Shown here one piece after another: positions 12,149 through 63,218 of a DNA stretch of 64,000 nucleotides; positions within the stretch are counted from its first letter, which is position 1, and each line of letters begins with the position of its first letter. The stretch is from Neelides folsomi (Eukaryota > Arthropoda > Collembola > Neelipleona > Neelidae). Made by a program: the position numbers and the translations under genes. The DNA lies in contig JAQGBZ010000088.1 of the NCBI GenBank assembly GCA_034687125.1, positions 62,001-126,000 on the forward strand. Reading direction: 5' to 3'. Below the pieces are notes generated by a model. That model saw only the letters and a list, made by a program, of their open reading frames with translations. It did not search any database and was not told the DNA's origin.

Positions 12149-14846
12149 TTAGGTGACAGTCGGATCGAGAATTTCCTCCGTTTCTTGAGGATCCACATCG
12201 GAGAGGCGAAGGAGCAATGCGACGTCGTTGGAATGGGTTCCGAATGAGAAGCAGTTCCCTCCGCCACCAAAGAGAATCAGCTCTTCGTCACGATGAAATG
12301 CACCGAACCCGAACGGGAGGAACAGATGGTGACCAGTGCTCTAAAGTGAACGAAAGATTTGGGTTCATTCCGCTCCCATCCACAATTCCACAATACTTCA
12401 ATTTCGAGGGTTCGGGAGAAGCCGCAGGAATGATAAGGACTTACGATTGAGAAGGAACGAGAAACGGAGGGATTCTTAGGATTGATGAGAGCTACAAAGT
12501 TGTCTAGATGATCCCCCGTCGACCCGTATCCTCCCACAAGTAGTAAAAAATCCGTTTGGAAGATGAACACCGAGTGCCCGGTCCGGGCCGTGAGGGAGTT
12601 GGAGGGCAAGAGAGACCATGCATTTGTACTCTTATAATCATAGGCCCAAAGTGCGTCTTCCACCAGTCGGCCTCCGCCGTCCATCCCCCCGACGAGGTAC
12701 ACCAACCCGGATGACTCGTCCACACACATAGAATGGGAGTGTCGGGCCGGAGGTCGAACCGAGAGCTCCTCCCATTCATTGTCTTTAATGTTGTAGATCC
12801 AGAGATCGCCCAACGTGTCCTAATTCCACAATCTCAATTCAGGTCTCATCTCAAGGAGCGGTCGTCTCACTCTCAGATTTTATTGATTATTGATCACGAA
12901 CCTTCCCATTCGTCCCACCGTAGAGGAAGAGGAAGGGAGTCTCGTTGTATGTGTAGGTAACGATCCCATGTCTCCATCTCAAACTTGGCTTCTTGGAAGT
13001 CGTCAGAATGATAAGCTCAGGTTGGCCGGTTTCGATCGACACGGAGACGAGATCATCTGTACAAGGATTCGCTGGAGACTTCCGCCCACCGAACAAGTAT
13101 AATTTGTCATTTGACGGAACGAAAGTCAGGCTCGCATGGACTCGTTCAAATAACCCATTATTCCCTATGACACTCGATTCAAAACTTTCTTCCTTCAATT
13201 CCCACTCTTGCAGGTCTGAGGAACGGACCGAGTTGGATCCCACGCCACCGACAGTGAAGATCCTTATGGAGTCCTTGGAGGTCGGGACGGCAGCGTGGGC
13301 GGAGAGTGACAGTCGTGCATTTGTTTGAAGGGTTCTTGTCGGGATGAGGTTTTTGTTCGCAGCGAGTCTCTGAGGGCGCTCAAAGTTTTCCTCAATGGTT
13401 GTGAGTAGGCGGGAGATGTTTGGGTCCTCTTTGATTCCCTTGAGCCCGAGCCGAAGAGTGTAGTGGAGACAAGTGGCCATGAGAGCTTCGTACTCGTCAA
13501 ACTGGTGGTTGGAGGCTGTAGGATAGAGAAGCTCCGTCCCGCGACTGAGGAATTCAAACGCGTCCCTGGCATTGATCACGAAGGAGTCATCGAAGCCCTA
13601 TGAATTTAAAATGAGGGTCTAGAATGAGATCCAACCATCGATTTCCCATTAACTGACAGATGAGTCGAGCTGCCACTCTTGTGTGACGGGATCTGGGTAT
13701 TCCCTGAGGCTGAGAAGAGGACACCCGTTCGCAGCAAAGTGTTCCATCATGAGCCGGCCATAGGGGTCCCCGGGGTAGCACTGTTCGTATGCGAACCACA
13801 CGCTTCGGCCCACGTTACGAGCAATCCAATACAAAACTCCGTCGCTCCTTGAAAAATGTTCAAAATAACAAAGAGTGAAACATGTTTGAACGGATTCCAA
13901 TGCGGATGAGGGCCATTCCTTTGAGTTGCGAACCATTCAAACTTAACCATCATGTACTCCAAGACTGCGGAGAATTACAACTCTCGAGTAAACTCAAGTT
14001 CTTTTTTAAATTGAATAATGGTATACAAACACAAATAGATGAAATAGTTCATCTTTAGCTTCTTGTTATATTGGGTCGTAAACATTCATTCGAGATTTAT
14101 TCATGGACCTTGAGAAAGCCCTTTGATATAATTTAAAATGATAAAAAAGTATTACTCTGAAGGTTTGAGATAGTTGACGACACATTCGGAGTAGAAGATC
14201 GTTGGGGCTCCAAAGTCAAAGTTGAGGTTGGAAAGAGCTTCGTGAAACTTGGGAATATCTCTGAGATCAGCTGGAACGAGGACGAGCTTTCCTTCAGCCA
14301 TGCTGCTCAAAACCGGCTCATTGGAGATAACTTTACCCTTTTCTTGAATCACCGTTTCGAAATCCACGTCGAAATAACGAGATAGCTTCTCATCGAATTC
14401 GGGAAGGAGTCGAAAGTACGTAGTATCCATTCCACACCCGAGCGATACAATCTGCAATGGTAATAATGGACTTATCCTTGCAAACAAAAAGAAAGGTTTT
14501 TAGGGGAAATTTTTATGGACGATGATGGGTTTCCCCTGCGGTTTCATGAATTATTTAAAACCTCCTTACATCCTAGTTCAGTACCTGAACGGGACACTCG
14601 AAGAGAGCAATGATTTTCCTCAAGAAGTAATCACAGACTTTGTGCCGCACGAAGTAGCCCTTGCAGATGAGCGACGTTCGCTTTGGCACCGAATTCTTGT
14701 TGAACATCGTGAAGAATGGATCTTCCCAATATCCATTTGAAATGCATGAGAGTTTTGAGTCGCTGCTCCAATCTCCGGTATTCCTCACTTGACTCTACAA
14801 AAAATTGAATAAATAAATTGAATAAATTCTTACAGATCACCACCAT
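12149..14846 (-). CDS. LCMT2: tRNA wybutosine-synthesizing protein 4 (LCMT2/TYW4): methyltransferase plus Kelch repeats
   Basis: In its family this enzyme carries out late steps of wybutosine synthesis on tRNA-Phe, using S-adenosylmethionine. Coding order: (first exon uncertain), 14585-14794, 14156-14451, 13658-13847, 12902-13597, 12445-12819, 12149-12340; at least 652 residues against about 686 in human. Visible features: the N-terminal DSKLSCISNGYWEDPF and KGYFVRHK segments; the SAM-binding SLGCGMDTTYFRL; YSECVVNYLKPSE; FAYEQ..PGDPYGRLMMEHF; and FDEYEALMATCLHY. Kelch blades follow (FLYGGTNGK, VYLVGGMDG) and the terminal GGGGNCFSFGTHSN. The start is unresolved. A short exon with ATG at 14846 and donor at 14833 could splice by a 46-bp intron to 14787. 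Alternatively an upstream exon splices to 14794, where the acceptor is better. Confidence 0.88.
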
Positions 14847-31400: not shown

Positions 31401-34400
31401 ATGTTCCTCCGGCGGGGCCTCGCCTTCTTCTTCCTAGTCACGGTCGCCAGAGTACCGGCAGGTGAGATTGAAATATTCGACAACCCATGGAATTCCACGA
31501 CACTCTTTTACAACCTTTTTCCGAGAATCCAAAAAGAACTTCTTTTGATGAGATGAGATAAGGGGGTAACAGGAGAGTCGCTTAGCTAAGTGATTGTGGG
31601 GAGGAACGGGATTCCTTTTGTAATATGAGGGGGCTTCATCTCAATGTAGGCCAACGAGTTGGGTCGTCCGCCCACGAAGGTCATCAATCACTGGTTTTTA
31701 TTTCCAGATGCCCGGTGTCCGGTTTCCGCCATGAACCAAGCCCTTTGCGACCCCAACGCCGAGGATCAGTGCAAAGATGATAGCGACTGCAGCGGTGACT
31801 CAATATGCTGCTCTACAGGATGCTCCAAAGTTTGCATTCTCCACCTTCACTCAGGTACACTTTTTTCATTCATCCCACTTATTCCTTTATTCCATGATGT
31901 TTTATGCCAAGCTGTGAGTAATATGATTTATACCGATGAGGCCGTACTTATGCCTATCTTGAATAGTAGGTCCGCATTGTATTGCCGTATATGCAATATC
32001 ATAAGTATTATTCGAACTGGCGAAGTGGATTCCCCACTTCCCCCATTCTAATTCTCTCAATTCACCTGCATTCTTCGCCGTTCCTCATTATTCACTATTA
32101 TTTCATGACCTGTTCCTTTACGCGGAGACTCAACTCCAATTGAAAGAAAAGAATAGGACGGTGCATAATAATGTGATACACTTCACATGATCCCCCTTCT
32201 TCCCTAATTAATAGTGAGTGTGATGCCGACTGGGAGCTAATGGATTCATTCTTCTCTCGCCGGAGACAAAGAGATGAAGGTCGTGATTTGAATTGTTCCT
32301 TGGCGAGGTCGCGCTCTCCAGCTGGTCCAAATTGACATCCTGAGGCTCCACCTCAGTTCGACATCATTACGCTTATCCTCCACGTCGGCCCCAATAACAA
32401 ACATGTCAAGTTGTTAAATTCGCTCAGGTGCTTCTTGAACTTGAATTGAATTGTCAGGAACTGGGAGATTACATCGCTCCTGTCCGACTCGTTTTAATTG
32501 CTCGTTAGCTAATAACACAAAATACAATTCATGGGGATTATGTTTCAATGGAATAACCTTCTCTTTTTATTTCTCCCATGCTAACCCAGAGCCCAAAGCT
32601 CTCATTAATATTTATGGGTTGATTGGACAAGCGTTGAGCGCGATTAATTAAATCTTTATTCTATTTAATTAATGCTCTCAATTTCATTTTATACTGCAGC
32701 CAGCAGGAAATGTTTGATTGCAAGTGTGATAATATTCATGAACGCCATGAATAAACATTCGGATTATCATTGTCCATACGATTAAAGTGTTATATAAACC
32801 TAAATATTCAATATCAGTTGCATTCAAATACCACATGCAGGTAAAAAATCATAACATTTTGATTTATTTTACCTCAGTTTTTTGCGTCTCAACTTCTTGT
32901 TACACTTATCGAGAGCGCATACCTTCACTTCAAATTTAAGGACGCCAGACGTCAACCAATTATTGTAGTTTAAATTGGCTTTTGGGCAACAAACATTCCT
33001 TAATTTATTGCAGTGGTTAAAAAACTTTATGAATCGGGGTATACTAAATTTAATTATTTTCCATTATACCAAATTAGCCCTTCCAGTGTTGGATGCTCAA
33101 AAGCAGAAGTGAGCATTAATATGATTGAATTAAATAAAGGAAGATTGTTCATTCGTTAAGGGAAAATGCTAAAGATGGGAAATGAATAATGAATATTTAA
33201 TATCTTAATAAAGAAGGTTACCGCAATTATGCATTAAACATGTGTGAGTTCTATCTTCCGCAAGAGCTCTCCTTTATGCATTAGCCGAGTTTATGCATGT
33301 TTGAATTAACGAGATTGTAAATGGTTGATCACCTTCATATAAGGAAAAGTAGACCTCCTCGGTTTGAGTTTTATTAAAAGTAATCGTTTGATGAATTAGA
33401 GCGAACCAAAGTATGTGTAGAGTAATTTGTGAATATGCCGACTCCTTTCCTTGAACATCGTTTTTATCCGTATATTGGACTTCTTTGTAATGAGTCTAAT
33501 GAGGTAAAGGTCGTTTGTTCGACTCGTCTCCACTTTTCCAATTTTTTTAAACTGACCACCAACGGGTTCTGAGTCGCCTCCATTCAATGACTTGTCTTTC
33601 AACATCAAAGATTCAATAATTCACCCTCTCACGCCTCTCTTTCGCCATTACCATCATTATGAGTTTAATAACAATGGAATATAGGGCTGTGAGGAGGCGA
33701 GCGTGGCTCAATTAAGATTTCTCTAATTAACTTCATCTCACCCCCGCGCTTGAGTTATCTCCATCGGGAAATTTCATCTGAGGGTGAAATGTGTACGATT
33801 GTCTACACAATTAAATTTACGAGTTGTGAATTAACCAAAGATGCATGCACGGACTCCCATTCAGTCCGATTGCCCATTCACTGTAAGTGAGACACTTTCT
33901 AAACAGGGTCTAATGAGGGATGGAGGAAAGTTGAGCGGAAGAGCGGCGCTTTAATTATAAGCAAAAACAGTGAAGAGGATTTGATTTGCCATTCTCCGCC
34001 CTCTGACACGGTGACTCCGGAAACGACGCCTATTTCGCAATTCCGCTCCGTCCACTTGCTACATATGATTAAGACCTACTCACTTGACTCCTCACTTGCT
34101 CTGATTCCCCACACTTTCCTCATATTCCTCTTCCGCCAGGAATATTCCCATATGGGATTGATGTGAATAATGAAAAGAATGGAAGAGTCTCTCACGCCCA
34201 CATCTACACACACATACTTGTCACCAAATTAGGGCTCCTTAAGACTTGATTATCACAACTGACAACTTGAGCAGTTCTTATCCCATTGTTTTTACATGTT
34301 ACTTATTCAAATGTTCTTTTCAGCCTGCGAGCAAGTGAAGGACTATGGCGAGAGACGAGCGAGGTTGTTGCCAGAAATCGAAGCCCTCGACGTCATCATC

Positions 34401-37400
34401 CCCAAGTGCGGCCCCACGGGGGAGTACGAAGAGATCCAGTGCGAGCGCAGCGGCCGCTGTTGGTGCGTCGACGAGGGAGGGCGAGAACGGCCTGGCACAC
34501 GAGTTAGCTCATTAAGCCTCGTCAACTGCACGAGTGAGTTGAATCGGCGGAACTACTTCAGCCCGTTGCATTTACTTGGATTTGCTTTTAACGCTTAAAT
34601 CCCCTTATTTAAACTCATTGTTAGAAATTGCTCGCAATGTTGAAGATAAAGTTGGAAGCCTAAATGGAAGTCAAATAGAGTATGTTGAAAATAATTGCAA
34701 AGAACTCCTTGATGTGTGTTTATGGGAAATGTGCAAGTTTCTAACTACCTTGATCCACTGCACTGAACACAGAAAGCCCAGAGAGATGTAAATAAATATA
34801 GTAAAGGGCTCTTACTAATTTGAGAGCTTGAAATCAAAAGGTGGAAAGTGAACAAATATTCCTTTGAACAACGGACAGGTTGTTAAACCGTACATCACGA
34901 GAAGTTATTATTAACAACGCTCTAAATAATATAATAAATCCACTCAAAACTCGTTCTTTAAAAGTAGAGTCAACATTAATTGTGCATGGTAGGAGCACAA
35001 TGTAAACACGATGAGTTGAATTGAGTTGATACAGTCAGTGAGTAATGCATTTAATGTTAATTAGCTTAAAACTGAACCACTCAAGACAAAAGTAGAATGA
35101 TCTATTGACATGAAGAATGTATTAAGAAATTAATTGAGCAAAATTAATTCCAGATCCGAGACAATGTCTTGGCCCTCAGTGTCGAATGCTCTGTCCTCAT
35201 GATTTTGAGCTTGACGAAGAGGGATGTCCCTTCTGCGAGTGCAGAGATCCTTGTAAGGGCGTAAAGTGCCCGGCCAATACTGAATGTACCTTAGAAGAGC
35301 CGCCGTGCAAAGACATGCATTGTCCTCTTGTTCCCTCTTGCAAGCAAGCAAGGAGCTTGGAGTCCCTTTGCTCCATCGGGGTCCCACTTGTCCTCCCCGA
35401 AACAGGGAATCCGTACCTCTGTGGCAATGAAGCTGGAAAACCCACATGTCCTGCTGCCTTCAAGTGCAACGTTCAAAAAGGTTCGTTTAATAATTAAATT
35501 AAAACTCGTATGTAATAAGTACTTGTTATCATTTGCTTTATGTACATTTTAATAACTTAATTCAAGTCATGTATCATGATTTGTAGTTATAAAAATAAGT
35601 ACGTGATTTATAACATGATTTTAAGTATACATGAAATGCACCGTTTTCCAAATTACAAAAAAAGACTTAACTATTATATTATACAATAGGCAATGACTAT
35701 GGAGTTTGCTGTGCCGAGAATATGAATTTTGAAAAGTCGGGAACATGTCCTTTGGTGGTTGGGGTTGTTGAAGGAGAAGAGTGTAAAACGCCATGTCGCC
35801 ACGACCTCGAATGTCCCGATGCTCTGAAATGTTGTATAGCCAATTGTGGGAAGACCTGCACGATGCCGGCTAATTTGACTCGTGAGGATTTAATTTTTAA
35901 AGGGCGTTAAGTCGGGCATAAGTGGATATTAAAAGAGGAACTGTTTGGGTTTAGTGTGTTTGGAGCAGAGAAGGATGGCCGAGTTGCTCTCAATGAAAGA
36001 GGTTGCTGGGAAAGGCTACGTGCCCCAGTGCGATGAGAGGGGCGAGTTCGTGACGAGGCAGTGCAGTAGGAATGGAAAGGTCTGTTGGTGCGTCGACCCC
36101 AGTGGAAGGAATTATCCCCAGTCGATGGGTCTTTCTGACAGCGTCAATTGTTCTCAAATGGCCAAACAACGAGGTATCAATGACATCATCTTACCCATTA
36201 AACCTGTAGTAACAATGAAATTAATGATTTGAAGTCGTGAGTGTTCAAACAAATCTGAGTTGGACAATCGAATAAATGAGCTTCATTGATTCCATTTAGC
36301 AGTGAGTAGGTTAGATGAGGGATGTAGGAACCTCCTTTGCCCAAATACATGCGACCTTGGGTTCAAAATTGACCGAAATGGATGTCAAACGTGCGAGTGT
36401 GTTGAGAATCCTTGTGATTCGTTCGAGTGTCCATCTGGCTCCCGGTGTTCTCTATCCAATCAACCATGCGATTCTTCAGCTAAATGCGTTCGAACTCCAA
36501 CATGTAAATTCAATTTTATAAACCTGATCTTTTTATTCAATGTTTCAATTTATCAATATGATATGTATATTATTTGTTATTAATGTGATTACGAGATATT
36601 ACGAGACATATAAGTACAATATAAATATAATACATAGATAATTATGATGTCATTATATTAAATCTTTCAATTGTGTAATATTTTACAATTGAATTCAGGT
36701 TTATCAGAAAGTTTATATGTGAACCCATGTGATGTTGGAACTCCACTGACCGATGTAAATTCTGGTCAAGTTGTGACTTGCTCTAACACAGCGACAACTT
36801 GTCCTTCGTCTCACATTTGTGTCGTTGTGTCAGTCAACAGAGCTGGACTTTGTTGTGTGAATAGGCCAAGAGTCGGTGAGTCAAAAATTGATATTTCATC
36901 ATTTATTGTTATACAGTTATTGTTATTAGTTTTTGCAACTTTTCGTATCACATTACAAAATAAGGCCAATACATAATAACACAATTATTGGCATATTACA
37001 TAAAGAGCCATAAAGATTAAATGAGGGATGAAACTATGTATTTATCTTGTAGAGTTTGTGAAGGCTGGGATGTGTCCGTTTCTGTCACCAAGTCTTTGCA
37101 ACGGGACGAGTGGTCTTGAGAGCAAGAAATGCCGTTCGGATAAAGAGTGTGAAGGCGACATGAAATGTTGTGGTGTGGGGGGATGCGGTGCCATTTGTGC
37201 TGATCCTCTTCTTACTCCATCACCCGCCACTCCAACACCAACTGGTAAGGGAAATGACGTTTTAGAAAAGACTCAACTTTCCTATTTTCCCACAGCGTGT
37301 GAATATTTACGAGACGCTCGTGGGCGGATGGTCGGGGCGCTGCAGCCGTTTAGTCTCGCAGTGCGAAATCCAACTTGCAAGGAAAACGGAGAATACGAGG

Positions 37401-40400
37401 AGGTCCAATGCGAGGGCGAATCATGCTGGTGCGTTGACGAATTTGGAGCCGAGATTTCCTCCACGAGGTAAACCATCTTGCTCAACCATAGTGAATGGAT
37501 CCGATGAAATAGAACCAATGAGTTTAACTAATTACATGCCTTCGCTTTTACGTTGAATTCTTAACCAGGATGAAGAAAGAAGGCGGCCTCACCACCCCCA
37601 TGAACTGTATTGAGAAACGTGTAGCTCCTGGCTGTTTGGAAATGAACTGTCGTCTCGGATGTGACTTTGGTTATGAAACCCTCGACGGGTGTCGAATCTG
37701 CGAGTGTCGGAACCTCTGCAAAGAAAGTCAATGTGGGGAAGGAGAAGAGTGCGAAATGGTTGATGTGGATTGTTGGGATGGACACTGCCCTGCGCTTCCT
37801 TACTGTGAGTTCAAAAGCCCTCAAGCCACAATTTCGCAGACCAATTATAGTTAATTTCAATTTATTTGTAATTGCAGGTATACCTAAATCACTTTCGCGA
37901 ATTAAATGCCCCAAAGGCGAGCCTTTCATGGATCCCGAGAGGAACGAGAGTATGAGTTGCAACCCTCGCGCAAGGATGTTACAATGTCCTGATGACTTCT
38001 ACTGCCATGACACGGAAACTCACCATGATTTTGGACTTTGTTGTCCTGTTCTGTGTAAGTTTACAAATAAACAATCTTTTCTGATAACTAACTTAAAGAT
38101 AAGGTGCTTAAATATTGTCCGTTTTTTCTTATCATCACTGCTATAATATAAAGAACTCCTTACAATATACAATAAAGTACTCGTACATTATATTGTAACT
38201 GCGTGTATGTAAATATATAATAATTTAGTATAATTCAATTGCTTTACATTCATGAATTAAAATAAATCAATCCATTGTTATTCATCAAGTTGTCGATGGT
38301 CGATGGATGAATTGCATTTGAGAGAAAGCAGTTAAATTGATTTCCTCTCAATTTCTATTCAGATGGAGAGGAAGCCGAGGAACGCTCAGGAGTTGAAGAT
38401 GTTGGGAATTCGCTTGAGCATACGGGAAAACTTGGGCAATGCCCATATCTTGTCCCACTGACTGGAGGAAGTTGTACTTTCGACTGCAAGGAAGATGCTG
38501 AGTGCGAAGACGACAGGAAATGCTGCTCCAACGGATGCGGCACCACATGTGTTCCGCCTGTTGTCCTCACCGGTAACATTTTATTTATATCGAACAATAA
38601 ATGGAATAAAATGATTCGCAAACAAGATTCACTAAATTCACTTATAAGGAAAAGCGTAACGAAAAAAGTCAAATCTTTCACAGCTTGTCAACACATGAGG
38701 AGTATTATTGTGCACAAAGCCCGTGAAAGTGGAGTTCCTGCACAGAGGATTTACATCCCTCAATGTAGTGTGGACAATGGAGCTTTCGAGCCCATCCAAT
38801 GCCACCCGGTGTCTGGAAACTGTTGGTGTGTAAATCCCACAGGTGAGGAGATTCAAGGAACTCGCTCTTTGGCTGGAACAATACCAAACTGTCAAGGTAT
38901 GTTGAATCAAACGTCAAGTGTTATACAAAATATTAGCAAAACAATAGTCTAATATGCAAAATATAAATAATTTAAACATTAAGAATTTCTCTTAAAAATA
39001 TTTTTATAAATAATAATAATTTGGCATTTTAAATATTTTATAATTGCTACAGGTTCGGACAATTGTCCTCTAAAGAAATGTGCATCTGATTGCCAATTCG
39101 GTTACAAGTTGGATTCGTCAGGATGTCATACTTGTGAATGTCGACATCCTTGTGAAGATGTTAAATGCGAGAGAATGTCCGATGAGTGTCGTCTGGTTGA
39201 TGTTTCATGTATTGGCGAACCTTGCCCTCCAGTTCCTATTTGTCTTCCCAAGCTTGAGAATCCTTGTGGATATGGAGAACCTCTTGAAGGGCCAATGGGA
39301 CGAATGACCTGTGGACCGACTTCTGGGTCATGTCCTTCTTCTCACAGTTGTAGTTTGAGCCCATTTAGAGAATATGCTGTCTGCTGTCCAAAACCCAGTA
39401 CGATCAATTTTTTACAAGGACTTAACTACAAATTAATTGACTGTTAAACAACAACATTATTGACAATTGGTATTAAATATTTATTAATGCTCATTTCAGA
39501 GGAGATTTGCTTCCAAGAGAAAGAAACTGGAACTTGTGACGGGGCCGTAACTAAATGGACATTCAATCACGAAACCAATGCTTGTGAAGAATTCACCTTT
39601 ACCGGATGTGGAGGAAATTACAACAATTTCGATACAAAAGAACATTGTGCTAATGTGTGCCCTGGTTAGAGCTATAACTATAAATTACAATTAGCATTCT
39701 TTACTACTATAAATTAGCAAGTGTACCATATTTTCAACCTCACTATCTTTTGAATTTGATGTATTTTAAAATCTTTAATGATACTAAATAGCCCTCACAA
39801 GCTGTGAAAAGATGAGAGAAAAGAAAAGAGAATCTCGCGACAAATATGGGCACTTAACTTATATCCCCAATTGTGCTCCGGAGAGCGGAGATTGGGAATC
39901 TGTCCAATGTCTACATGAAGTTGGCATGTGTTGGTGTGTGGATCGAAAGGGTGAGCCCATTAAAGGCACAATGACCAAAGGACAACCCATTTGCTCTTCG
40001 AGACAAGCTCGTGGGCGCCTCATTTCCTCTGACCCCGATCCTCCAGGTGAAAAAAACATTTTGGTACTATTGAAGATTTCTGCTTATTTATAACGTTAAG
40101 AATCTTGTTTCATTTTTTGTATTATTTGTGCTCTCTCTATACAAGTTTGTGGGGAAGGAGTTTCCATCCATGTGTGTGAGCCGAGGCTCTGCGAAGGAAA
40201 AGTGTGCATGAGCAATCCAGAAGCCACATGCCGCGTGAGTCCCTGTGGAACTTGCAAAGCCCAATTTTTTGACGCTAATAATCAAGAAGTGGATTGTGAG
40301 GTCGGACTGAAAAAATGCCAAAAAGAAGTGCAGAAATTTGTCAATTCACCAGCTTGGTCCAATCAAGGAAACAGCGCCTTGATTGAGGAAGACGCCGAGC

Positions 40401-43400
40401 CGTTCCTTGACAATACCCTTCAAGAGATTCTCATTGGGAGCTCAATGGAAGAACAGGACATGGCTGTCGCAAGAGAATTGGCTCCTCTCTTTGGAGGCAA
40501 TGTTTTAATGAGGGGGAGTGCTACAATTCTTGGCGGACATGGGCGAAGCATTGATCGTTCTGGCACCGTTGACAACATTGCCGACATCCTCGCTGATATT
40601 ATGAGGGATGAGAGGATGGATGACGAAGCAGATCTTTTGGATCTCATGCCGAGCAGTGCTCGACTTCTTCCAGCTTTCAACCAACCTCAGTTTTATGACT
40701 CTTCCTTCCCCTTCAGATTTAAAAGATCCTTGGAAAGTTTGGAAGAATCAAGGGAAGAATCCGGTGAAATTGGAGAAGACGTTCATGTTCCAGCTCACTC
40801 AGAAATTTTAGTGTCCATTTTACGTCCAAATGGGCAGAAAAAGGAAGGTTCGTGTCCGCCACCGAAATCGTTAGCGGTTCTCCTCCACCTTCTTAATGGC
40901 GACTGCCGAGATGAATGTCAATCTGATGAAGAGTGCAAAGAATCATTCAAATGCTGCATGCACGAGTGTGGATTCAAGTAATGAAAGTTTAAGTTATTGG
41001 AGATAGAGCAAAATCATCTAATTGATAAAATTAAAATAGTTTATATTAAATATATTTTAATATATTTCTTCCGTCCTTTAGATGCATGGAGCCTGTTGTA
41101 TCTCTTGGAGTTGTACGCGAGCCCATAACAAAAGAAGGAGAATGTCCAATCCCAACAGAAGTCGATCTCTCTTGTTTATCCCATCCATCAGCCTTTGAAT
41201 GTGGTTCGGATGAAGAATGTGAAGGAGCATTTAAGTGCTGCTTTGATGGATGTGCTACAAGATGCATTTCACCCAACAGTAATTATACCCTTTATCTATT
41301 CAAAGCATTGAATGAAAATCTTCAGTATTTGACTTTCATTGTTAAAATAGGAGAAGTTCGTCCTGCTGGAATGGTGGCGTCTCCTCCCGCTTGTGATGCC
41401 ACTGGAGATTTTGAACCTGTTCAATCCCAAGGAGAGCTTTCATGGTGTGTTGACCCAGAAGGAAATCCACTTCCACAAACTCTCACACGGGGACTTGTTT
41501 ATTGCGCTAAGAATGGTGAGGATGATCATAATCGGATTCGTTTCATACATAATATTTTATCGAACACTATGGACATTGATAAATTGATAAACAATTATAC
41601 TAAAAATTAACATTACCGATCAAAATCGATCTTATTCACTTTTCGGAAAAGTCTTTTCCACAGACCAATAATATAATATTGATAATTTATTTGAAATGTA
41701 TCGTTCATTAAATATTAAATTATATTTAATAGGAACTGTAATGAAAAGAGAGGCGAGAGGTGATGTGTGTTCAAATGGGCGAGAACCGACAGTTTGTGTT
41801 GACGAATGTCTCAAAGCATCTTGCTCTGCTCATCCAACAGCTCTTTGTATTGCGGATCCTTGCGACATGTGTTCAGTTGCATTTTTCAAGTGAGTTCACA
41901 GATTTGATATATGATTAGATGTTAGAAATGTCATTAATGCAAAAAAATTGCTTTAATTCATTTAAAAAACTTTTTATGTTTAGACAAACTGGAGAAAGAG
42001 TAAATTGTGACGAGAAATGCACGCAGTCAGTTGAACCCGGACTTTGCCGTGCTTCTTTCAGACAATACTTTTTCAACACGACTTCATCCCGCTGCGAGGA
42101 ATTCATATATGGTGGATGTGGAGGAAATGACAACAACTTTAGAACAATTGAAGAATGTCGAGCAGATTGCGAAAAACCGGGTAAAAACTATTCAATTGCC
42201 AATTTTTAATATCAAATTATGTGGCATTAAGACTAAAATCATATTTATTTTTTTAACAGTTGACATCTGTAAACTACCCTTAAAAATCGGATTGTGCAGA
42301 GCCAGCGTTGATCGTTGGTATTACGATTCAGAAACAGACACATGTGAAGAATTCATTTACGGAGGATGTGGAGGAAACGCCAACAATTTCATTTCAAAAG
42401 AACAATGCGAGTCACGATGTCCTGACATCACTTTATGTCCAAATATGATCGATGGGGAATTATCAACCTGCAGTCGTTCTTCGGCGTGCAGCAACTTCTC
42501 GTGCGGACATCTCGACAGTGACGAATTCATTTGCCGTGTTGATCCATGCACTTGTTCACCTCTCCGGGCTGAAGATGTCGATGGGCGTGAAATGGACTGC
42601 TCTGCAATTCCAACTCCACCAACCATTGAAACCGACACTGGAGATGATACAATTGTGATATTTGCTGATTCAAGAGAAGAATTGGCCACAGTGGGCCCTT
42701 CTATGGAAGAAAAGAAGTATGAAATGAAGAGAATACTTTCTTACTCTTTGGATAATCTCCCATTGAGTCGGTGTTTAGCAAGACAAGAAAAGGGAATGGC
42801 TAGTTGTGATGGGAAAGGTCACTTCATGCCAACACAATGTTCAAAAGAAACTCCACCCACGTGCTGGTGTGTTGACGGATCGGGGAATCAAATCGAAGGG
42901 ACTGGAACTTTTGTTAGAGGTGCCCGAAGATGCAGTCGAGTTTCCATCGTCAGAGTTGACATTTCCATCACTTTCCCCACTCGAGTACAAATAGGAGAAG
43001 AATTGGAAGAATTGATCGGAGTTTTGGCCTCCCGCTCAGTGACCAAAGAAGTCACACGATCGTCATTGAGAATCGTCGAAGAGGTTGAAACAAAAGTGTC
43101 GTTCTCAGTGGAAGGATCGGCCAGTGCAGATGTAGGATTCCAACTTGAAGAGCTTGTAAGGCGCGGTTTGTTAGCTGATGGCCATCCAGCTCATCCATCA
43201 TCATCCTTCCATTCAATTTTGGGGTCCAAAGAAGAGAATTTGGTATTTGAAGAAGCTGTCGTGGCAGCCGAAGTTGGAAAAGAAGAACATGACTCTGGAA
43301 TGTTGCTGATGGCTGTTGCCGCTTTCAGCGCTCTTCTCACCATTGTCGGCCTCTTCTTAGCTTTCAGAAAAAAAGAGAAAGATCCCCTTCCATTCGCTTC

Positions 43401-43494
43401 CCCACTCCATCAACTAGAAAAAGAAGAAAAAGGAGAAAAGGAGGACTTTAAAGCAAAAGTTATTCTCAAATTGAAGGGAATTCTTAAGAGATGA
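31401..43494 (+). CDS. Mosaic type I membrane protein with WAP, thyroglobulin-1, antistasin-like, lustrin-like and Kunitz domains
   Basis: Twenty-three exons, about 2,094 residues: 31401-31461, 31708-31854, 34324-34533, 35154-35480, 35690-35881, 35955-36173, 36300-36503, 36699-36875, 37053-37244, 37296-37467, 37569-37804, 37878-38054, 38363-38572, 38684-38896, 39053-39397, 39500-39664, 39792-40046, 40146-40977, 41082-41278, 41351-41515, 41733-41889, 41984-42180, 42260-43494. Signal peptide (1-20), then four WAP-Tg1-antistasin-lustrin units (about 21-1027), Kunitz 1, Tg1, a long acidic linker, two WAPs, a degenerate Tg1, two Kunitz domains and a last Tg1. A helix at about 2030-2052 and a Lys-rich 42-residue tail follow. 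CWCV marks most Tg1 copies. A furin-type RFKR lies in the linker near residue 1358. The modules are protease-inhibitor or matrix types, so an extracellular or cuticular protease-control role is likely but inferred. Confidence 0.85.
31855..34323 (+). other. Large intron of the mosaic gene between WAP 1 and Tg1 1
   Basis: A 2,469-bp phase-1 intron (GTACAC donor, TTTTCAG acceptor). It contains no additional cysteine-rich module that I could detect. The 5' half is mixed in composition and the 3' half AT-rich. Confidence 0.6.
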
Positions 43495-45122: not shown

Positions 45123-51488
<6,366 letters not shown>

Positions 51489-54161: not shown

Positions 54162-57100
54162 ATGACCAAGTCTTGGGTTGTTATCCCCATTCTTCTTTTC
54201 TCATCATATCTGACCAGCAGTGGGGACGAGGCGACAGGGCCAAAAATCGTCCCACAAGCCGCATTTACCAAAGCAGATGAAAGCCGCATTAAACTGGTCC
54301 TCGCCGGAGGATGGAATCTTAAAGATGCTGGAGCAACGAGCTATGCTGTCTTAACACACGCCATATTTAAATGGGATGTCCCGAAAGCTCCTGTAAGTTG
54401 ATTATAATTAATACACATTTACCAAAATTTCAAAATATTTTACTTTGGATGTAGATAATTTTCTTAAAATATTATAATTTGCACGGTGTAACCTTCTATC
54501 CTTCTTGTGAATACATGAATTTTAACCATATAACACGTCACGTAATTGCTAATGCATTTAATATTATGAATTTTGCCACTGAACCTATAAAAATAATTTT
54601 GTGATTATTATTTGTGTTAATTACAGGCATATAGGTATTTTATTTTTGAAATCATTGTAGATGAAAATGTCCAAAATGCGAATTATTTTATTCAATAATT
54701 CGCATTTTTTAACGATCAAAATAATTTACTTCAAATATAGGTTCAATATGCTTTAGTTTTCCTTATAGATTTAAGAATTTTATAATTACAGCTGCTATCG
54801 TCTATTTCACCATTTTATTCAAATTAGTTAATCACTTCTTTAGAAGCTACCCTTTATAAAATGTTTGTATTGTGTATAGAGAAATATTCATATTATTTAT
54901 TTTGATAATAATGTTAATAAATGCTGTATATATTTATTATAGAACAATATAGCACAGTATCACTCCAGCTTCCTCAGGAATCCGTTTTGATGATATTCAT
55001 TAATTAAAAAGCAAATTGTTTAATATAATATATTGAATGAAGAATAGGTTATCTCGGAATTAGATTCGTTTCTAACGATTTTTATCAAACAAATAATTTT
55101 AATGGACATTACGAATATAATGATAGTACATCAAATATAAGTTGTTCTTTATGGTAGATTATAATTGATAAGCAAATTTTCAATAAATATAATGAATTTG
55201 AGTGAGAAATGAGACAAAATAGAACTTTTGTCATCGATAGCGGAACAAAGAGAATCGCATTATGTAATTTGTTCATATTTCATTTTACGCGGAATAACCC
55301 ATGTTTGTTATAATACCGCTATGTCAAACGTCGATTAAAATTTTATGAATTTCCATTTCCAAAATCCGTTACTAACGAATTAAAAATTTCGAGATAACCT
55401 GTTCTTCTTTGAAATGTCACATATATATATTTAGTTATAAATTATAATTTCACGGAACAATACTTATTATGTAATTTATTTATTATCTTAATAAATAATC
55501 AGCTTACCAAACGGTTGGGGCCGGTCATAAGATTTGAGATTTTCCACGTTGAGTTGTTTCTTGACTCGACATAATTTTTATTATTTATTTATGAAGATGC
55601 TTTTACGATTAGTTTAAAATTTTAATTGGTTTTCATTTTATTGATATGATTTTAAATTATGCCATAAAGTGCTAGTTCATTTTAAGATGTGTATTTATGA
55701 ATTTAAATGAACTTTGAGCTAATGTAAGTTTGAGCTCAAGACCAACTTAGTGATATTTTCTTAAGAATCTCTTATTCGTATCTTGCATAGGAGCGAGTTT
55801 AGACCCATGAAGATATTTTCGGTCCAGAGAATTATGTTGTAATTTTGAAAGCTTGGTAGGAAAAATGTGCCAAATCTCGGCTGCACTTGGCATATTACTT
55901 ATTTATCCTATAAATTATTTATTAGATTAGTTTAAGTACCTACTTATTCATTGCGTTTACTCCACGACTTCGGTTTTATTAAAGCTATAACATTTCACTT
56001 AGCTCTCCAAATACCCTCTGAGCATAAATGACTTTTAGGAATGACGGAACGGGCCATTGATTGGTATTCTATTGACTTATCAATGGAGTATTTTCTTTAT
56101 TGGCCAAAATAAACTCCCTCCGAACTCTCCATTCTCTATTTCAAATAATAATTGAAAGATAAGAGATTTGATTGAAGGGAATAAGTCCTTTATTGGTAAA
56201 TATTTCTATTTTGAAAGTATATATAAAAAACGCTATTTTAGGAAGTCTGTAAGTTTCTTCAATCGAAGCTTGATGGAGAAGATGGAGTGAAACTGGAACA
56301 AGCCTTCGCAATCTCATCAGCTATTACGAAAATTCCTTCGTGCAAAAACTCTCCTTTGAAACAAGGGCTGAAGGACGTAAGTACTTCTTTTCAAATTCAT
56401 TTCCCCCAGCTTCAATCGGAACCTGACCCATGATATTGCTACTCAAATGGACCCATATTTGATGTGGTTATGCTCGTGGGTTAAAGTATTCCTGGTCATT
56501 CCTCTGTTGAGAATCCATTACAAGTTTATTTTAAATTTTATTTGCGTTTTTACTTATGGATATGACCAACAACAATTTCTCCATTAATCTTATTTTATGG
56601 CAAGACAAATTCCTGTCTCAAGTTCATGAAACCATTTCTCTTAACCCGAGATCCATATCTTCTCTTATATGGTGAAAATGGTTATGTTTAATTAAATGAA
56701 TGTGCCATTAAAGTCGTTTGTGTTGGTTCAATGTGAAACAGGCTGTCGGCAAAACTCTAAAGGATGGAGGAACATCTCAAGATATCTTTTATGCGGCCGA
56801 GATAAGCAAAGCTGCCGGGTTGGCCGTCGATGGAGCGAAAGTTGGAGAGCTTCTCAAAGCTTCTACCAAAGCAGACGATTCTCCTTCATCTCTCGGATAT
56901 GCCCTCTGGGCCTCGGCTGTTCATGCAACTAAAAAGGACCTCCTTTGGGATCGGATTGAGGACGTTGTGGCCCAAGCCGACGAAGTGGACAAAAAGTATC
57001 TCCAATTTGAAGGTGGGCTCTCAGTAACTGGACCGGTCGTAAGCGGGATTTTCCGAGTGGGGCAGGCGGCCAATAAATTGAACCTCACACCGGACCAGAC

Positions 57101-59524
57101 CATCAAGCTGGGTAACTACCTTGTCTCAAGAAAGACGGTGACGAGTCCTCGGGGCGTTTGGCTCTTTGCATCGGCCCTCGACGTCCTGAGCAGCAATAAG
57201 GTGAGTTGGAGGAGGATGCGGGGTTTTGTGGGCGGGTTCGGGTCGGCACGGGAGAGGAAGCGAACGGCTTTCCGTGCCAACTTTTCCTTACTCGTGGGAA
57301 AGAGCAGGAGTGAGAGGAGGAAAGGATAAGGGAAAACTTTGTGGATCAATGGGATTAGATTTATTCTCACGTACGTCTTTGGTGGCAGTTTTCAGTCCCG
57401 GTCTACATTGGAGTCGCGGACTCAAACATTCTGTCGGAGGGAAACAAAGTGATTTCCGTTCGTGCCTCCGATTTACTCGGCAGGCCGTTGGATATCTCTC
57501 TCCAATTAGAGTCTGTCTCTCATGCAAAGGATGGGAAGAAGGTCCCCAATGTGGAATTCATCCAAGCGGTCCAGGCGGCAAACGACAGGTACGTTGTTTC
57601 CCCATCAATCCTCCATCTCTTTCTTTTCCCTCACGCCCCAACCCTTATCACCCCCATTCTTTTATTCCTTAATGTCGCCCAAAGTGATAAGATCAACATT
57701 TTCTTCCAAAACCTCACGAAGATGCGGGAAAGTGAGTGAAATGAAAGGTTTTGATTCCCTTAGGACTCTTTTTGAAATTGACACCAAGACTCGCCCGCTC
57801 CCAAAGGGATTCTTCAAAATCACGTTCGTTCCCAAGAGCACTAAAGGAGAAAAGGCACTTGTGCTCCGCGACACGGCCCTGGATTGGAAAGTGGTTGGGA
57901 AGCTGGGAGCGGTAAAGGTGCGTGTTGGAGTCTCAGACCCCGACCAACAGAGCAAGGCCACCTACACCGACATCAACCGCGGAGAGAAGCTCAAGGGCCC
58001 TTTGGAAGTGGAAGGAGGAGAGAAACTCATTATTAAAATCGCCGCGTCCGACTCGCTCCATCAAGTATTTGTTCTTCTGAGGAACAAGGCGACAAAGAGG
58101 GAAGTTGCCTTCATTGCCCAGACTGAAACTGATACGAAGACGGATTATAAGCTTGAATTGGTAATAAGTCCCTACCCACCCCGGAGTATATAATTCCTCT
58201 CGTGGGTGCAGCCTTTATAATAGGTAATCTCGACGGAGCCATAGTCGAGAGGGGCTGGACAAGTTCCACGCCCCTGAATGCGAAATGAGCTTGCGGGGCG
58301 TAAATTGTGGAGCAGGGAAGGAAAGGAAGGTGAAAGGAGAGAAATGACATTTTGAGAGGGGGATAAGTGAGTGGTTGGGTTCCCTGGCTCCCTTTGACTT
58401 TTAAAATCTCGGCATGAATGGAATGGGTTTATTGATTGAGCTGAGCCCGGAGCTCCGTTTATGAGGGACATAAAGGCTTCACCCACTGGAGTTCTCTCTC
58501 TCGTGATGACAAATTATGGGATCTTCTGATTCGTGCTGAGAACCAGCCGCTGACAGATCCATTCATCCCCCCAAAACATCTCTATATTCGAACCATGTCC
58601 TTTGAATCTTTTTTATCATATTTTAGGACCCGGTAAGCCACGCGAAGGACTTGGGTTACGAGTCAGGAGCCTACGAAGTCCTTATCTACCTTGGTGACTT
58701 CCTCATTGAGGACTCTGTGGAGTGGGCCTTGGGAGAAGTGGTTCTGCAGGTGGCGGGTGGGAAGGCGAAGTCCGTCAACCCGCTCTACGCCGTCTCATAC
58801 GGACCGAAGGAGAACATCAAAGCAAGTCGTTTTTGTAGTATTACATAGTAGGTTTAACCAGCGCTCGTTAGTCGTGGCTTTGTAGCCCCGACTCCCAACT
58901 CGCTGGGAAAGGAAAGAAGGGACGGAGGGGCCTGGAGGAGCAGAGCCATTCTGCCTCGCCCGGCCACTAGCTTTCCCCACACCCACTTTCCCTACCTCAT
59001 CTCTCCCCACCCTGCTCACGTTTGCTTTTTTCTTATATATATGTATTTACAGCACACATTCCGTGTGCCAGAACCGAGGCCGCCGCGGGTTCTCTCTGAT
59101 GCATTTACGGCCTTCGCCCTCGCGCCGCTCCTCATCCTCTTCTTTTTGGTAAGATTGGATTCTGGGAGGGAGATTAGGAGGATTAGTGGGGTAATCCACT
59201 GGGTGAGGAGGTCTGGTCTTCCACTCTTAATCACTTCACCTCTAATTGGATGGAGGGGCCATTGTGAGTGGATCACACACTTCTAATGCTTCCTTTTCTT
59301 CACCTTTGCAGTGGTGGAAGGTGGGAGCGAATGTTCGAGGTTTGGAGCTGTCTCTCTCGGCCCTTGGATTCCACGCGGGACTGGTGGGGATCTTCGGCGT
59401 GTATGGAGTCTTCTGGCTCAAGCTCACCATGTTCGAGGCACTGAAGTGGATGGCTGTACCAGGGCTGGTCACATTTGTGTCTGGCCATCGCTTACTCTCT
59501 TCGATCTCGGAACGGCGGAAATGA
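54162..59524 (+). CDS. RPN2: Ribophorin II, oligosaccharyltransferase subunit 2
   Basis: Non-catalytic ER membrane subunit of the oligosaccharyltransferase that N-glycosylates proteins. Exons: 54162-54392, 56242-56376, 56742-57200, 57389-57588, 57764-58160, 58627-58821, 59053-59148, 59312-59524; 641 residues against 631 in human. Signal peptide at residues 1-22. The luminal part has the family's LTKxD-like start, the KKYLQFEGGL match to VYLQFEEGL, SVPVYIGV, and then HTFRVPEPRPPRVLSDAFTA before the three-helix C terminus (ALAPLLILFFL, WWKVGANV, LTMFEALKW). The ATG at 54162 directly precedes the signal peptide; a TTG-initiated frame at 54141 only extends it. Exon 6 must end at a GC donor (AAA/GCAAGT), giving a GC-AG intron. 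AATAAA lies at 59552. Confidence 0.92.
54393..56241 (+). other. Large AT-rich first intron of RPN2
   Basis: A 1,849-bp phase-0 intron with GTAAGT donor and TTTTAG acceptor. It is strongly AT-rich with no coding frame, and it contains the imperfect inverted repeat listed separately. Confidence 0.65.
55034..55412. repeat. Imperfect inverted repeat, possibly a decayed MITE
   Basis: The left arm (about 55034-55083: AGAATAGGTTATCTCGGAAT, then TTCGTTTCTAACGATTTTT) matches the reverse complement of the right arm (about 55361-55410: AAAATCCGTTACTAACGAAT, then TTTCGAGATAACCTGTTCTTC) at roughly 80 percent over 45-50 bp by eye. The arms enclose about 280 bp of AT-rich sequence without a frame. It lies in RPN2 intron 1. 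Target duplications could not be defined. Confidence 0.5.
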
Positions 59525-60288: not shown

Positions 60289-63218
60289 TCACACGTACGA
60301 CTGGCCCCCGCCGCCGCCGGAGCCTCCTTTCCGTGGAATCATGAACACGCACTGGATCGTCTCCTTGAACGCGTCTCGGAAGTCACGGTTGAAGTAGGCG
60401 TAGATGATCCTGCGAACAAAGTACAGGGGCTCATCCACGAGGGACTCGACAAGGCAGACGCTAATGAGGGTGGATGCCTCTCGGATCTCCTGCTTTCTCA
60501 TTTAGGGGAACTCGGTTAAGTAGATTGTGGAAATTCAATATTAAAAATAGCTCGAGCCCGATGAGATTTCCCCCCTCAACTTTCCTCACGTAATTGAGGA
60601 AATGGAATAAGGAAGGGAGTCGGAAAGAGGGAAAGTGTTTCTTTCCCAAACTTCTCAATTCGCCTTCCAATCAGTTAATGTGTCTCTCCGAATCTCCTTC
60701 TTCCCATCTCCCTGTCCACTCGGATGCCATAAGCTAAGGGCTGAGGCTTACGGATTGAGGGTGGAGTTGAAGTAGCCGATCCAGAACATTGTCTGCACCA
60801 CCCAGTCAGGGCTTTTGCACACCGAGCACACCGCGGACACGAGGTACCATGTGAAGAAGGGGACCCAGCAGAGGACGAACGTCCCCATGATGATACCTAA
60901 ACCAAACCAATTAAAAGAGGTTATAAATTGTAAACCCAGTATCAACAACAGAACGCTGGAGTAATACTAATGTAATTTCCCCATTTGCCTGTATAAGTGG
61001 TCGTGTCTACACTGGGTTGGTAAACATTGGATGGGAAAGCGGTAAGTAGCGCCTGGAGGAAGAATTGTATTAAATGGAAATTTGAGCTTTAAGGGAGCTT
61101 AGGCGCGAGTTAGGCCTTAAAACGCCTACGCTGGAAAAGGGAGATAATATGCAAAGTGTTATTTAATAGGGTATGAGGAGTGGAGGGAAGATCAACATAG
61201 CCTCTCATTCATCCTCTCAAAAATCAAGTTAGATTAAATGAATTGATGGACTAACCTAATAAAGTGGAAAAGGAAAAATGGATCTCTCTCGCTTCATTCA
61301 TGTCTCAATTGTCGAGGAGGATCCATCTCGTATGTAAATGGACCTATCATAACATCACTCCTAAAGATGCTTTTTACGTTGAGAGGGAAAGTTCTTTGAC
61401 GCGTCCTTCACCACAAAGGAAGCCCCAAATGAAAAGGCATTAAAGGTTTATTTACATAGATCTTTACGAATGAGGGTCGTATGTCTGGAAGTATCAATTC
61501 CTTGCTATCGCGGTCCTATCATTTCATGGATTATTTACGCACACAAAAGGGCACAAAACCCTCATATCCGACAATGGGAAGTACGTATTACCTGCCTATA
61601 CATTATTTATACCATGTGCTCGCTCTCCTATTTCGCCCAAAATTACATCAGACAGTGTATCGAGGGTCAAATTTCACAACAAAAGGCTCACCTAGTGTCC
61701 TCGCTGCCTTGTGCTCGTTCTTCCACTTGGCTTGGGACTTGTTGTCGCAGACAGCCGTCGACGTCGAACCTGGAACAACAACCAAGACTTCCAATTAACA
61801 TCCGCATACGTAGATAGATGGAGAACCCCTCATTATGAATTTGACAGTTAAAAATGGGAAACGGATTAGCTGCCGCTGCGGCTGTCACTTCTCAGCCCCA
61901 CATAAACGGATTTCATTTGACAAAAGCAAACAGATCCCCTTTCATCAAAGGAATCATAATACATTTCCCTGTTGCTTCCCCGTTTGAGGTCCGGAACTGG
62001 GGAAACCTCGGCGGCACGCGACGAGATTTAAAAACGTCTTACGGACCCTTTCTTTCACCACTACTTTTTATATGTTTTTACAAAGAGGAGATGACAAAGG
62101 CGGGCGGCTTACCGTTCTGGCTAATCTCAGATCTATATGAGCGTCTGTGGGAGGCGGACCGGGACGTTGAGTTCACATGTTGGAGGACGAGGCAGGCAGA
62201 GGTGGAGGAGAGGGCCCGCTTCTGCCGCAGGGCCTCTCGGAAGATCTTTGAGTACATGACGATCATGACGACGGCCGGGATCCAAAAGGAGATGGAGGAG
62301 GAGACGAGGGCGTACACTGCAGGCACAAACACACTTGACCTCAGGGATTGAACAAAACTGGCGGAGCATGGTGAGTTTCGCTGTTCCGAGTCAGTCCACT
62401 CGGATGGGTTCACAATCATGAATGTGGGGATTGGGGAAAGCACAGGGAGAAGAGAGATACCGCAAAGCCGGTGCCACTCCACATTGTCACTTTGAACAAC
62501 TTACCGGTATTGGGGATGAAGTCGCAGAGTTCGGGGTTGAGTTCCTTCTCCCTCAAGTACTCATCCGTCGTGTAGATCCCGAGGAAGATGGGGGTGAAGG
62601 AGAGGAATGAGGGGAGGATCCATATCGAGCCGATCATCACCCTCACCGTTTTGTGAGTCATCTTGAGAGGGTACTCCAAGGGTCGACAGATCGCGAAGTA
62701 CCTGTCAATCGAGATGCAGCAGAGGTGGAGGATGGAGGCCGTGGAAAAGTACACGTCCAGCGAGTTCCAGATGTCGCAGAGCACCTCGCCCCACAGCCAC
62801 CGCCCTGGGGACAACAACGTTGTTGACTGGGAGAGGAAGACGGGTCGAGGGTTACCTCCGTTGAGGGACAAGGCCGCATTGAAGGTCATGGCGCAGAGGG
62901 CGACGAGCATATCGGCCATCGCGAGCGAGACGTAAAAGTAATTTGTAAGAATTCGGAGTTTCCGGTGCCGCATGACGGAAACGATGACGAGCATGTTTCC
63001 GATCACGGCCGCCACGATGATGGAGACAAAGACGAGCCCCTTGAGGGAGAGGAGGGCGAGCTGGAAGGGAAATCGATTGGAGTGAAGAAACGGGGTAAGA
63101 CGGGACAACGGTCTTTTACCTCAAGATGCGGGGAGTCGGAGTCGGTGAAGTTCCCGCCGCGGGACCCATTTCCCCCGTCAGGGTCGGGGGCCGGGAGGAA
63201 TATGTCAGTCTCGTTCAT
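60289..63218 (-). CDS. Octopamine beta-like biogenic amine GPCR
   Basis: Rhodopsin-family receptor; beta-type octopamine receptors couple to Gs and cAMP. Seven exons on the minus strand: 63218-63120, 63060-62856, 62804-62505, 62316-62113, 61768-61691, 60896-60752, 60409-60289; 383 residues. The extracellular N terminus has two possible N-glycosylation sites (NGS, NFT). Helix 1 carries GNMLVI, helix 2 LAMADML and helix 3 the amine-binding Asp in NSLDVYFSTASILHLCCIS, then DRYFAICRPLEYP. The second loop has LCDF. Helix 5 has VYALVSSSISFWIP, helix 6 [20 protein letters not shown] and helix 7 [20 protein letters not shown]. The helix 3, 5 and 7 strings closely resemble insect Octbeta receptors. 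The subtype (beta1, 2 or 3) is not assigned. The C-terminal tail is short and Gly-rich. Confidence 0.9.

Follow-up and report, generated by a model that had tools for sequence, protein, structure and literature searches.

The DNA analyzed here (hereinafter, the window) is a stretch of 64,000 nucleotides from the collembolan Neelides folsomi (assembly GCA_034687125.1, contig JAQGBZ010000088.1, positions 62,001 to 126,000 of the forward strand). Positions 31401..43494 of the window, on the forward strand, hold a predicted gene in which 23 joined exons yield 6,285 bases, that is, 2,094 residues and a stop codon in a single open frame. The product appears to be a mosaic protein with a membrane anchor, and given that most of its 31 disulfide-rich modules belong to protease inhibitor families, it is probably a mixed-type protease inhibitor.

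Gene model and module composition

Rebuilding the model from the DNA gives the same coordinates, exon number and length as the original prediction, which had proposed a single mosaic protein at this locus. All 22 predicted introns have GT-AG borders, and the ATG of exon 1 is the first in its open frame. As previously claimed for nearly all junctions, phase 1 is dominant (19 introns, the remaining three being phase 2), which is typical of exon shuffling and duplication, and 15 of the 21 internal exons are symmetric (1-1). If phase 1 introns have a background frequency of 0.3, a general figure rather than one measured on this genome, the chance of finding at least 19 among 22 is about 7e-8, and with a background of 0.4 it is 1e-5. 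Introns lie between modules in 16 cases and within modules in six, two of the latter merely splitting the codon of the last cysteine. The description of the gene as having nearly one module per exon is generous, 11 of the 21 internal exons containing exactly one module (counted by hand, with split cysteine codons ignored). In general, the layout of intron phases and modules supports a putative origin by exon shuffling combined with block duplication.

A Pfam search with seven consecutive pieces of the protein (covering all of it except residue V1684) detects the constituent module types with E-values between 4e-22 and 8e-4: every piece has thyroglobulin type-1 (Tg1), five have WAP (one of them with two modules), four have antistasin, and lustrin and Kunitz are each found in three. 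With follow-up searches, the totals are 6 WAP, 7 Tg1, 4 antistasin, 4 lustrin and 3 Kunitz modules, so that the five module types named in the original prediction are all recovered by domain profiles. Antistasin 3 scores 20.3 bits in the scan of the pieces (the cut-off is 21.2) and 27 bits in a genome search; lustrin 3 is not listed in the scan of the pieces and reaches 39.3 bits (E 8e-10) when scanned alone. The Pfam scores exclude assignment of the modules by chance.

In the first half of the protein, a signal-peptide-like segment is followed by four repeats of a unit with the order WAP, Tg1, antistasin, CXA, lustrin (Table 1). The fourfold order had been predicted and is borne out by Pfam, but the unit consists of five modules, not four, the additional one being CXA, a module with six cysteines that follows antistasin and precedes lustrin in every unit. 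CXA matches no Pfam family above its cut-off; three of its copies give weak TILa scores. The second half is irregular, as predicted, with the order Kunitz, Tg1, CXB, linker, WAP, WAP, degenerate Tg1, CXB, Kunitz, Kunitz, CXB, Tg1, followed by a stalk, a membrane helix and a tail; it thus includes three Kunitz modules, the tandem WAP5-WAP6 and three copies of CXB, a module with eight cysteines that corresponds to the recurring C-x-C module of the earlier description and has no Pfam match at E <= 10. The modules contain 201 of the 202 cysteines of the protein, the lone outsider being residue 1225. All six cysteines are present in six of the seven Tg1 modules, and Tg1-6 retains only three. The losses in Tg1-6 affect the QC cysteine and the first CWC cysteine together, as well as the first cysteine of the module; in the usual Tg1 pairing, the QC and first CWC cysteines form one disulfide.

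The two halves are separated by a long linker (residues 1219-1403) with a single cysteine, and the RFKR sequence within it is the sole RX[KR]R motif of the protein. For the stalk, AlphaFold2 run without an alignment gives a pLDDT of 39, and a comparison with PDB sequences produces just two matches, with E-values of 0.096 and 4.5. The best hydropathy window of the whole protein (2.55 at residue 2032) supports the predicted C-terminal transmembrane helix.

Table 1. Predicted features of the gene, with positions in the window
Feature	Residues	Positions	Strand	Basis
Whole coding region, 23 exons, 2,094 residues, 202 Cys		31401..43494	+	joined model, Cys count
Signal-peptide-like N terminus, exon 1	1-20	31401..31460	+	sequence; hydrophobic first window
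Repeat unit 1: WAP1, Tg1-1, antistasin 1, CXA1, lustrin 1	24-256	31716..35712	+	Pfam, Cys map
Repeat unit 2: WAP2, Tg1-2, antistasin 2, CXA2, lustrin 2	268-506	35746..36856	+	Pfam, Cys map
Repeat unit 3: WAP3, Tg1-3, antistasin 3, CXA3, lustrin 3	520-768	37073..38044	+	Pfam, Cys map, separate scans
Repeat unit 4: WAP4, Tg1-4, antistasin 4, CXA4, lustrin 4	798-1024	38440..39387	+	Pfam, Cys map
Kunitz 1, Asp at P1	1031-1081	39508..39660	+	Pfam, Cys map, PDB alignment
Tg1-5	1087-1150	39803..39994	+	Pfam, Cys map
CXB1, 8 Cys, no Pfam match	1169-1218	40148..40297	+	Cys map
RFKR furin-type site (predicted)	1358-1361	40715..40726	+	motif in translation
WAP5 and WAP6, tandem	1404-1446 and 1466-1506	40853..41265	+	Pfam, Cys map
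Tg1-6, degenerate, 3 of 6 Cys	1512-1562	41353..41505	+	Pfam, Cys map
CXB2	1578-1626	41768..42008	+	Cys map
Kunitz 2, Arg at P1	1630-1680	42018..42170	+	Pfam, Cys map, PDB alignment
Kunitz 3, Arg at P1	1687-1737	42268..42420	+	Pfam, Cys map, PDB alignment
CXB3	1743-1797	42436..42600	+	Cys map
Tg1-7	1855-1908	42772..42933	+	Pfam, Cys map
Cys-free stalk before membrane helix	1909-2030	42934..43299	+	Cys map
Transmembrane helix	2031-2052	43300..43365	+	hydropathy
Lys-rich cytoplasmic tail, 42 residues		43366..43491	+	sequence
First AATAAA downstream of stop codon		43637..43642	+	sequence

The four units are 31.8-39.3% identical to one another over 196-202 positions (19-28% when the shared cysteines are left out), and a quartet bootstrap distributes 2,000 replicates among the three topologies as 1,054, 919 and 27, leaving the branching undecided. 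At this level of identity and with such a quartet, the duplications cannot be dated by aligning the units, as had been suggested; judging by these sequences, they are old and not datable from inside the gene.

The assembly (75.1 Mb, 840 contigs) was searched in six frames, exon by exon, for the best candidates, so that all counts are lower bounds. Among the matches listed, all four to antistasin and all three to lustrin are inside this gene (lustrin 1 was missed because an intron splits the module), compared with 6 of 10 for WAP, 7 of 13 for Tg1 and 3 of 24 for Kunitz. This best-candidate search found no second gene of the same make-up in the assembly, and no relatives were found in viral contigs (with the stalk as the query) or in prokaryote genome contigs (with the part from unit 4 to Kunitz 1 as the query).

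Reactive sites, proposed function and alternatives

Kunitz 2 and Kunitz 3 can be aligned with tandem inhibitors of solved structure, SmCI and boophilin among them, and carry Arg-Ala immediately after the second cysteine, the pattern of inhibitory Kunitz domains. Antistasin 1 is alignable with the solved leech antistasin and retains the Arg after its cysteine, which we take to be the P1 or reactive-site residue; the same alignment column contains Arg in antistasin 1 and 3, Pro in antistasin 2 and Ala in antistasin 4. Tg1 proteins, such as tick IrThy, are described as inhibitors of cathepsins.

These features are best compatible with a type I membrane protein that, with moderate confidence, can be considered a membrane-tethered array of mixed-type protease inhibitors located at epithelial surfaces and possibly cut by furin. 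Counted in favor of this function are the Arg-Ala of Kunitz 2 and 3 and the retained Arg of antistasin 1, the detection of antistasin and lustrin matches solely in this gene within the 75.1 Mb, and the presence of the same domain set in one moth protein and of most of it in another. The protein would sit on the surface of epithelia that face the forming cuticle or some other apical matrix, where Kunitz 2 and 3 along with antistasin 1 and 3 would act on trypsin-like enzymes and the intact Tg1 modules on cathepsin-like cysteine proteases, other heads perhaps acting on other proteases. With many inhibitory heads held at the surface, matrix proteolysis would be restrained, and residues 1 to 1361 might be detached from the membrane by a cut at the furin-type site. 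An extended version of this scenario is quite unlikely to hold in full: a single chain would carry heads for several protease classes, with trypsin-type, cathepsin-type and silent heads distributed across the four five-module units, and during cuticle renewal furin would convert the inhibitor from a surface-bound form to one released into the matrix. If this version did hold, CXA and CXB would be two undescribed families of disulfide-rich modules. In any case, the cysteine patterns of CXA and CXB could be built into families.

The original prediction knew of no named family with this module order; as far as the set of modules is concerned, the absence of a known family is not supported. WAP, antistasin, Kunitz and Tg1 modules occur together in this arthropod protein, as in mixed-type inhibitors, and lustrin is present too. 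PxSPI44 from Plutella xylostella likewise combines WAP, antistasin, Kunitz, thyroglobulin-1 and WR1 modules, WR1 presumably being equivalent to Pfam Lustrin_cystein. Its described composition is 3 WAP, 2 antistasin and 1 Kunitz, together with TY (thyroglobulin-1) and WR1 (PMC5309989), compared with 6, 4 and 3 modules of the first three types here. BmSPI56 from Bombyx mori, reported as a single 'mixed-type inhibitor', contains 1 Kunitz, 3 antistasin and 2 WAP modules along with a cysteine-protease-inhibitor unit printed as 'TSR' (PMC3278429); we read this unit as thyroglobulin type-1. It also joins Kunitz, antistasin and WAP modules to a cysteine-protease-inhibitor unit in one protein but differs in that the passages on it do not mention lustrin or WR1 and the word 'transmembrane' is absent from the main text of the paper (PMC3278429). 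More broadly, insects, crustaceans and mites are reported to share thyropins that are joined to WAP and antistasin (Santamaria et al. 2012, PMC3407033), with no mention of a fourfold unit in the respective passages. Among the papers listed for these domain names combined, no title or abstract opening describes the fourfold order.

Several observations weigh against a mixed-type inhibitor. The Asp at P1 of Kunitz 1 should be unsuited to trypsin-like enzymes, and together with the Pro and Ala at P1 of antistasin 2 and 4 and the three cysteines lost in Tg1-6, it implies that not every module can actively inhibit. The likeness to the moth proteins is one of published module descriptions, and in these the moth proteins have fewer modules (1-3 per counted type). 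In a tree of nine Tg1 modules (the seven of this gene and two from other genes; supports of 0.24-0.87), Tg1-2 groups with the module of another gene (0.51) and Tg1-7 with that of a third gene (0.24), so that descent of all seven from one copy within this gene is not supported. A 2017 survey of 14 arthropods gives zero WAP proteins for Ixodes and Tetranychus (PMC5673224), and the parasitic wasp Pteromalus puparum is reported to have no inhibitor of the WAP/antistasin/Kunitz type. The zero for these two genera conflicts with the statement on mites in PMC3407033. Furthermore, in Caenorhabditis elegans, MLT-11 without its Tg1 module, lustrin modules or furin site is reported to cause no overt phenotype (PMC13181417).

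The non-canonical heads would be readily accommodated if the protein were mainly a structural or adhesive component of the matrix or the cell surface, with stable, disulfide-rich modules used as spacers and binding sites and with only vestigial inhibition. The tolerance of MLT-11 to the loss of Tg1 and lustrin modules points in the same direction, as do papers on mollusc shell matrix whose listings mention lustrin, WAP and Kunitz together. Nevertheless, the Arg at P1 is retained in two Kunitz and two antistasin modules, and all but one of the Tg1 modules have the full set of cysteines, so that we consider a structural role rather unlikely. Independent assembly of a lineage-specific protein by exon shuffling, with common modules as its only likeness to the moth proteins, appears improbable: the module numbers are unlike the moth counts, the phase 1 layout would ease repeated shuffling, and the type is reported missing in the wasp, as are WAP proteins in the two chelicerates, but the meeting of five module types in one protein would be an unlikely coincidence, the WAP-antistasin thyropins are reported from insects, crustaceans and mites (PMC3407033), and no other antistasin or lustrin gene is found among the genome matches listed. 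Finally, two transcripts might be fused in the model; the long linker could, for instance, hold the end of a transcript for a secreted protein and the start of another for a membrane-bound one. The position of the nearly Cys-free linker between the two halves and the 2,469 bases spanned by intron 2 are compatible with such a fusion, which is nonetheless highly improbable, given that a single open exon encloses the linker, with CXB1 upstream and WAP5 downstream of it, that the chain of intron phases is unbroken, and that no hydropathy window above 1.6 is seen in the protein besides the membrane helix, so that no second signal peptide stands out.

Judging from its domain content, the protein is most likely a new member of the already described arthropod mixed-type inhibitors, larger than the moth descriptions. 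This suggests that a mixed-type inhibitor, known from short descriptions in moths, can be a membrane protein of 2,094 residues with a regular fourfold repeat of five modules. In a group that has received little study, such a protein stands out as long, regular and anchored in the membrane, and two of its module types, CXA and CXB, match no Pfam family over the cut-off. With a lone gene found to carry antistasin and lustrin modules in a compact genome, knock-down of a homologue would be informative on the role.

Genomic surroundings

The gene is followed on the same strand by a protein kinase gene (45820-48983), with an N-terminal kinase-like exon near position 45820 (by reading) and an exon at 48450-48980 that encodes the end of the Pkinase domain and a SIK3-type UBA domain. 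Farther downstream, positions 56712-58193 (forward strand) contain exons for ribophorin II, an oligosaccharyltransferase subunit (Pfam E-values 2.9e-38 and 2.5e-10); a search of part of this gene against PDB sequences gives no match at E <= 0.001. On the reverse strand, there is an exon of a rhodopsin-type G protein-coupled receptor (62416-63120), for which the closest solved chain is the octopamine beta2 receptor (E 9.5e-53), and a Kelch-repeat gene (12277-13597), for which Pfam gives Kelch families only, an LCMT2/TYW4 type being possible by reading. Rfam shows no match in the window at gathering scores, and NCBIfam no useful match to four pieces of neighboring genes.

Elsewhere in the assembly, the Tg1 gene on contig C599 has a SMOC/SPARC-type look, with an EF-hand-like sequence after the Tg1 module (by reading). 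The gene on contig C150 (18732-21845) has at least two Tg1 matches after an IGFBP-like, cysteine-rich N terminus (by reading) and is a candidate for a second kind of thyropin in this animal. On contig C52 (226151-229556, reverse strand), eight Kunitz matches are clustered in a candidate papilin gene of this genome.

The mitochondrial contig of the assembly (C742, 15,157 bases) contains cox1, as identified by Pfam. Reading of the open frames gives nad2, cox1, cox2, atp6, cox3 and nad3 consecutively on one strand, nad4 and nad4L on the opposite strand, then nad6 and cob, and then nad1, again on the opposite strand; nad5 is not listed, its expected place overrunning the end of the contig, where run-off frames were left out. 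Of the 22 tRNA candidates that ARAGORN reports in mitochondrial mode, 21 are assigned; one is a tRNA-Leu (taa) that separates cox1 from cox2. This arrangement, in which tRNA-Leu(UUR) has that location, is the ancestral pancrustacean (insect and crustacean) order. The mitochondrial gene order is judged to fit Pancrustacea, so that the gene would reside in an arthropod genome; a nematode origin, considered because of the lustrin modules and the likeness to MLT-11, is ruled out by this order.

Comparison with other multidomain proteins

SMOC and testican thyropins combine Tg1 with a SPARC-type EF-hand or a Kazal module, and no family of either kind appears in the Pfam results for the present protein. 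Papilin and lacunin resemble it as large matrix proteins described as containing Kunitz and WAP modules; their TSP1, ADAM spacer, Ig and PLAC domains are not reported by Pfam here at E <= 0.05. C. elegans C08G9.2 was considered as a candidate relative and dropped, the passage found on it naming no such modules. In Drosophila, CG5639 is presumably the fly member. Its published labels are a predicted peptidase or inhibitor of peptidases, a 'serpin' and the fly equivalent of mouse Slpi, and a table lists it with a 2.36-fold value in late grainy head mutant embryos. For Drosophila, the survey of 2017 counts 3 domains in two WAP proteins and 8 domains in three thyropins; for Daphnia pulex, the one crustacean in the table, a lone WAP protein accounts for five WAP domains, and 5 thyropins together have 11 domains (PMC5673224). 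The Daphnia counts would be compatible with a long protein like the present one.

A parallel outside arthropods is C. elegans MLT-11, which is required for both cuticle synthesis and molting (PMC13181417, PMC8733821). Besides a signal sequence and a predicted furin site, it carries ten Kunitz modules, three lustrin modules and a single Tg1. As here, it is a large mosaic in which these three module types accompany a putative site for furin. In contrast to MLT-11, the present protein has 7 Tg1, 4 lustrin and 3 Kunitz modules, in addition to 6 WAP and 4 antistasin modules; the published domain list of MLT-11 names neither WAP nor antistasin, and the words 'WAP' and 'transmembrane' are absent from the main text. 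The likeness between the two proteins suggests, without showing it, that such mosaics guard the cuticle at molting across molting animals.

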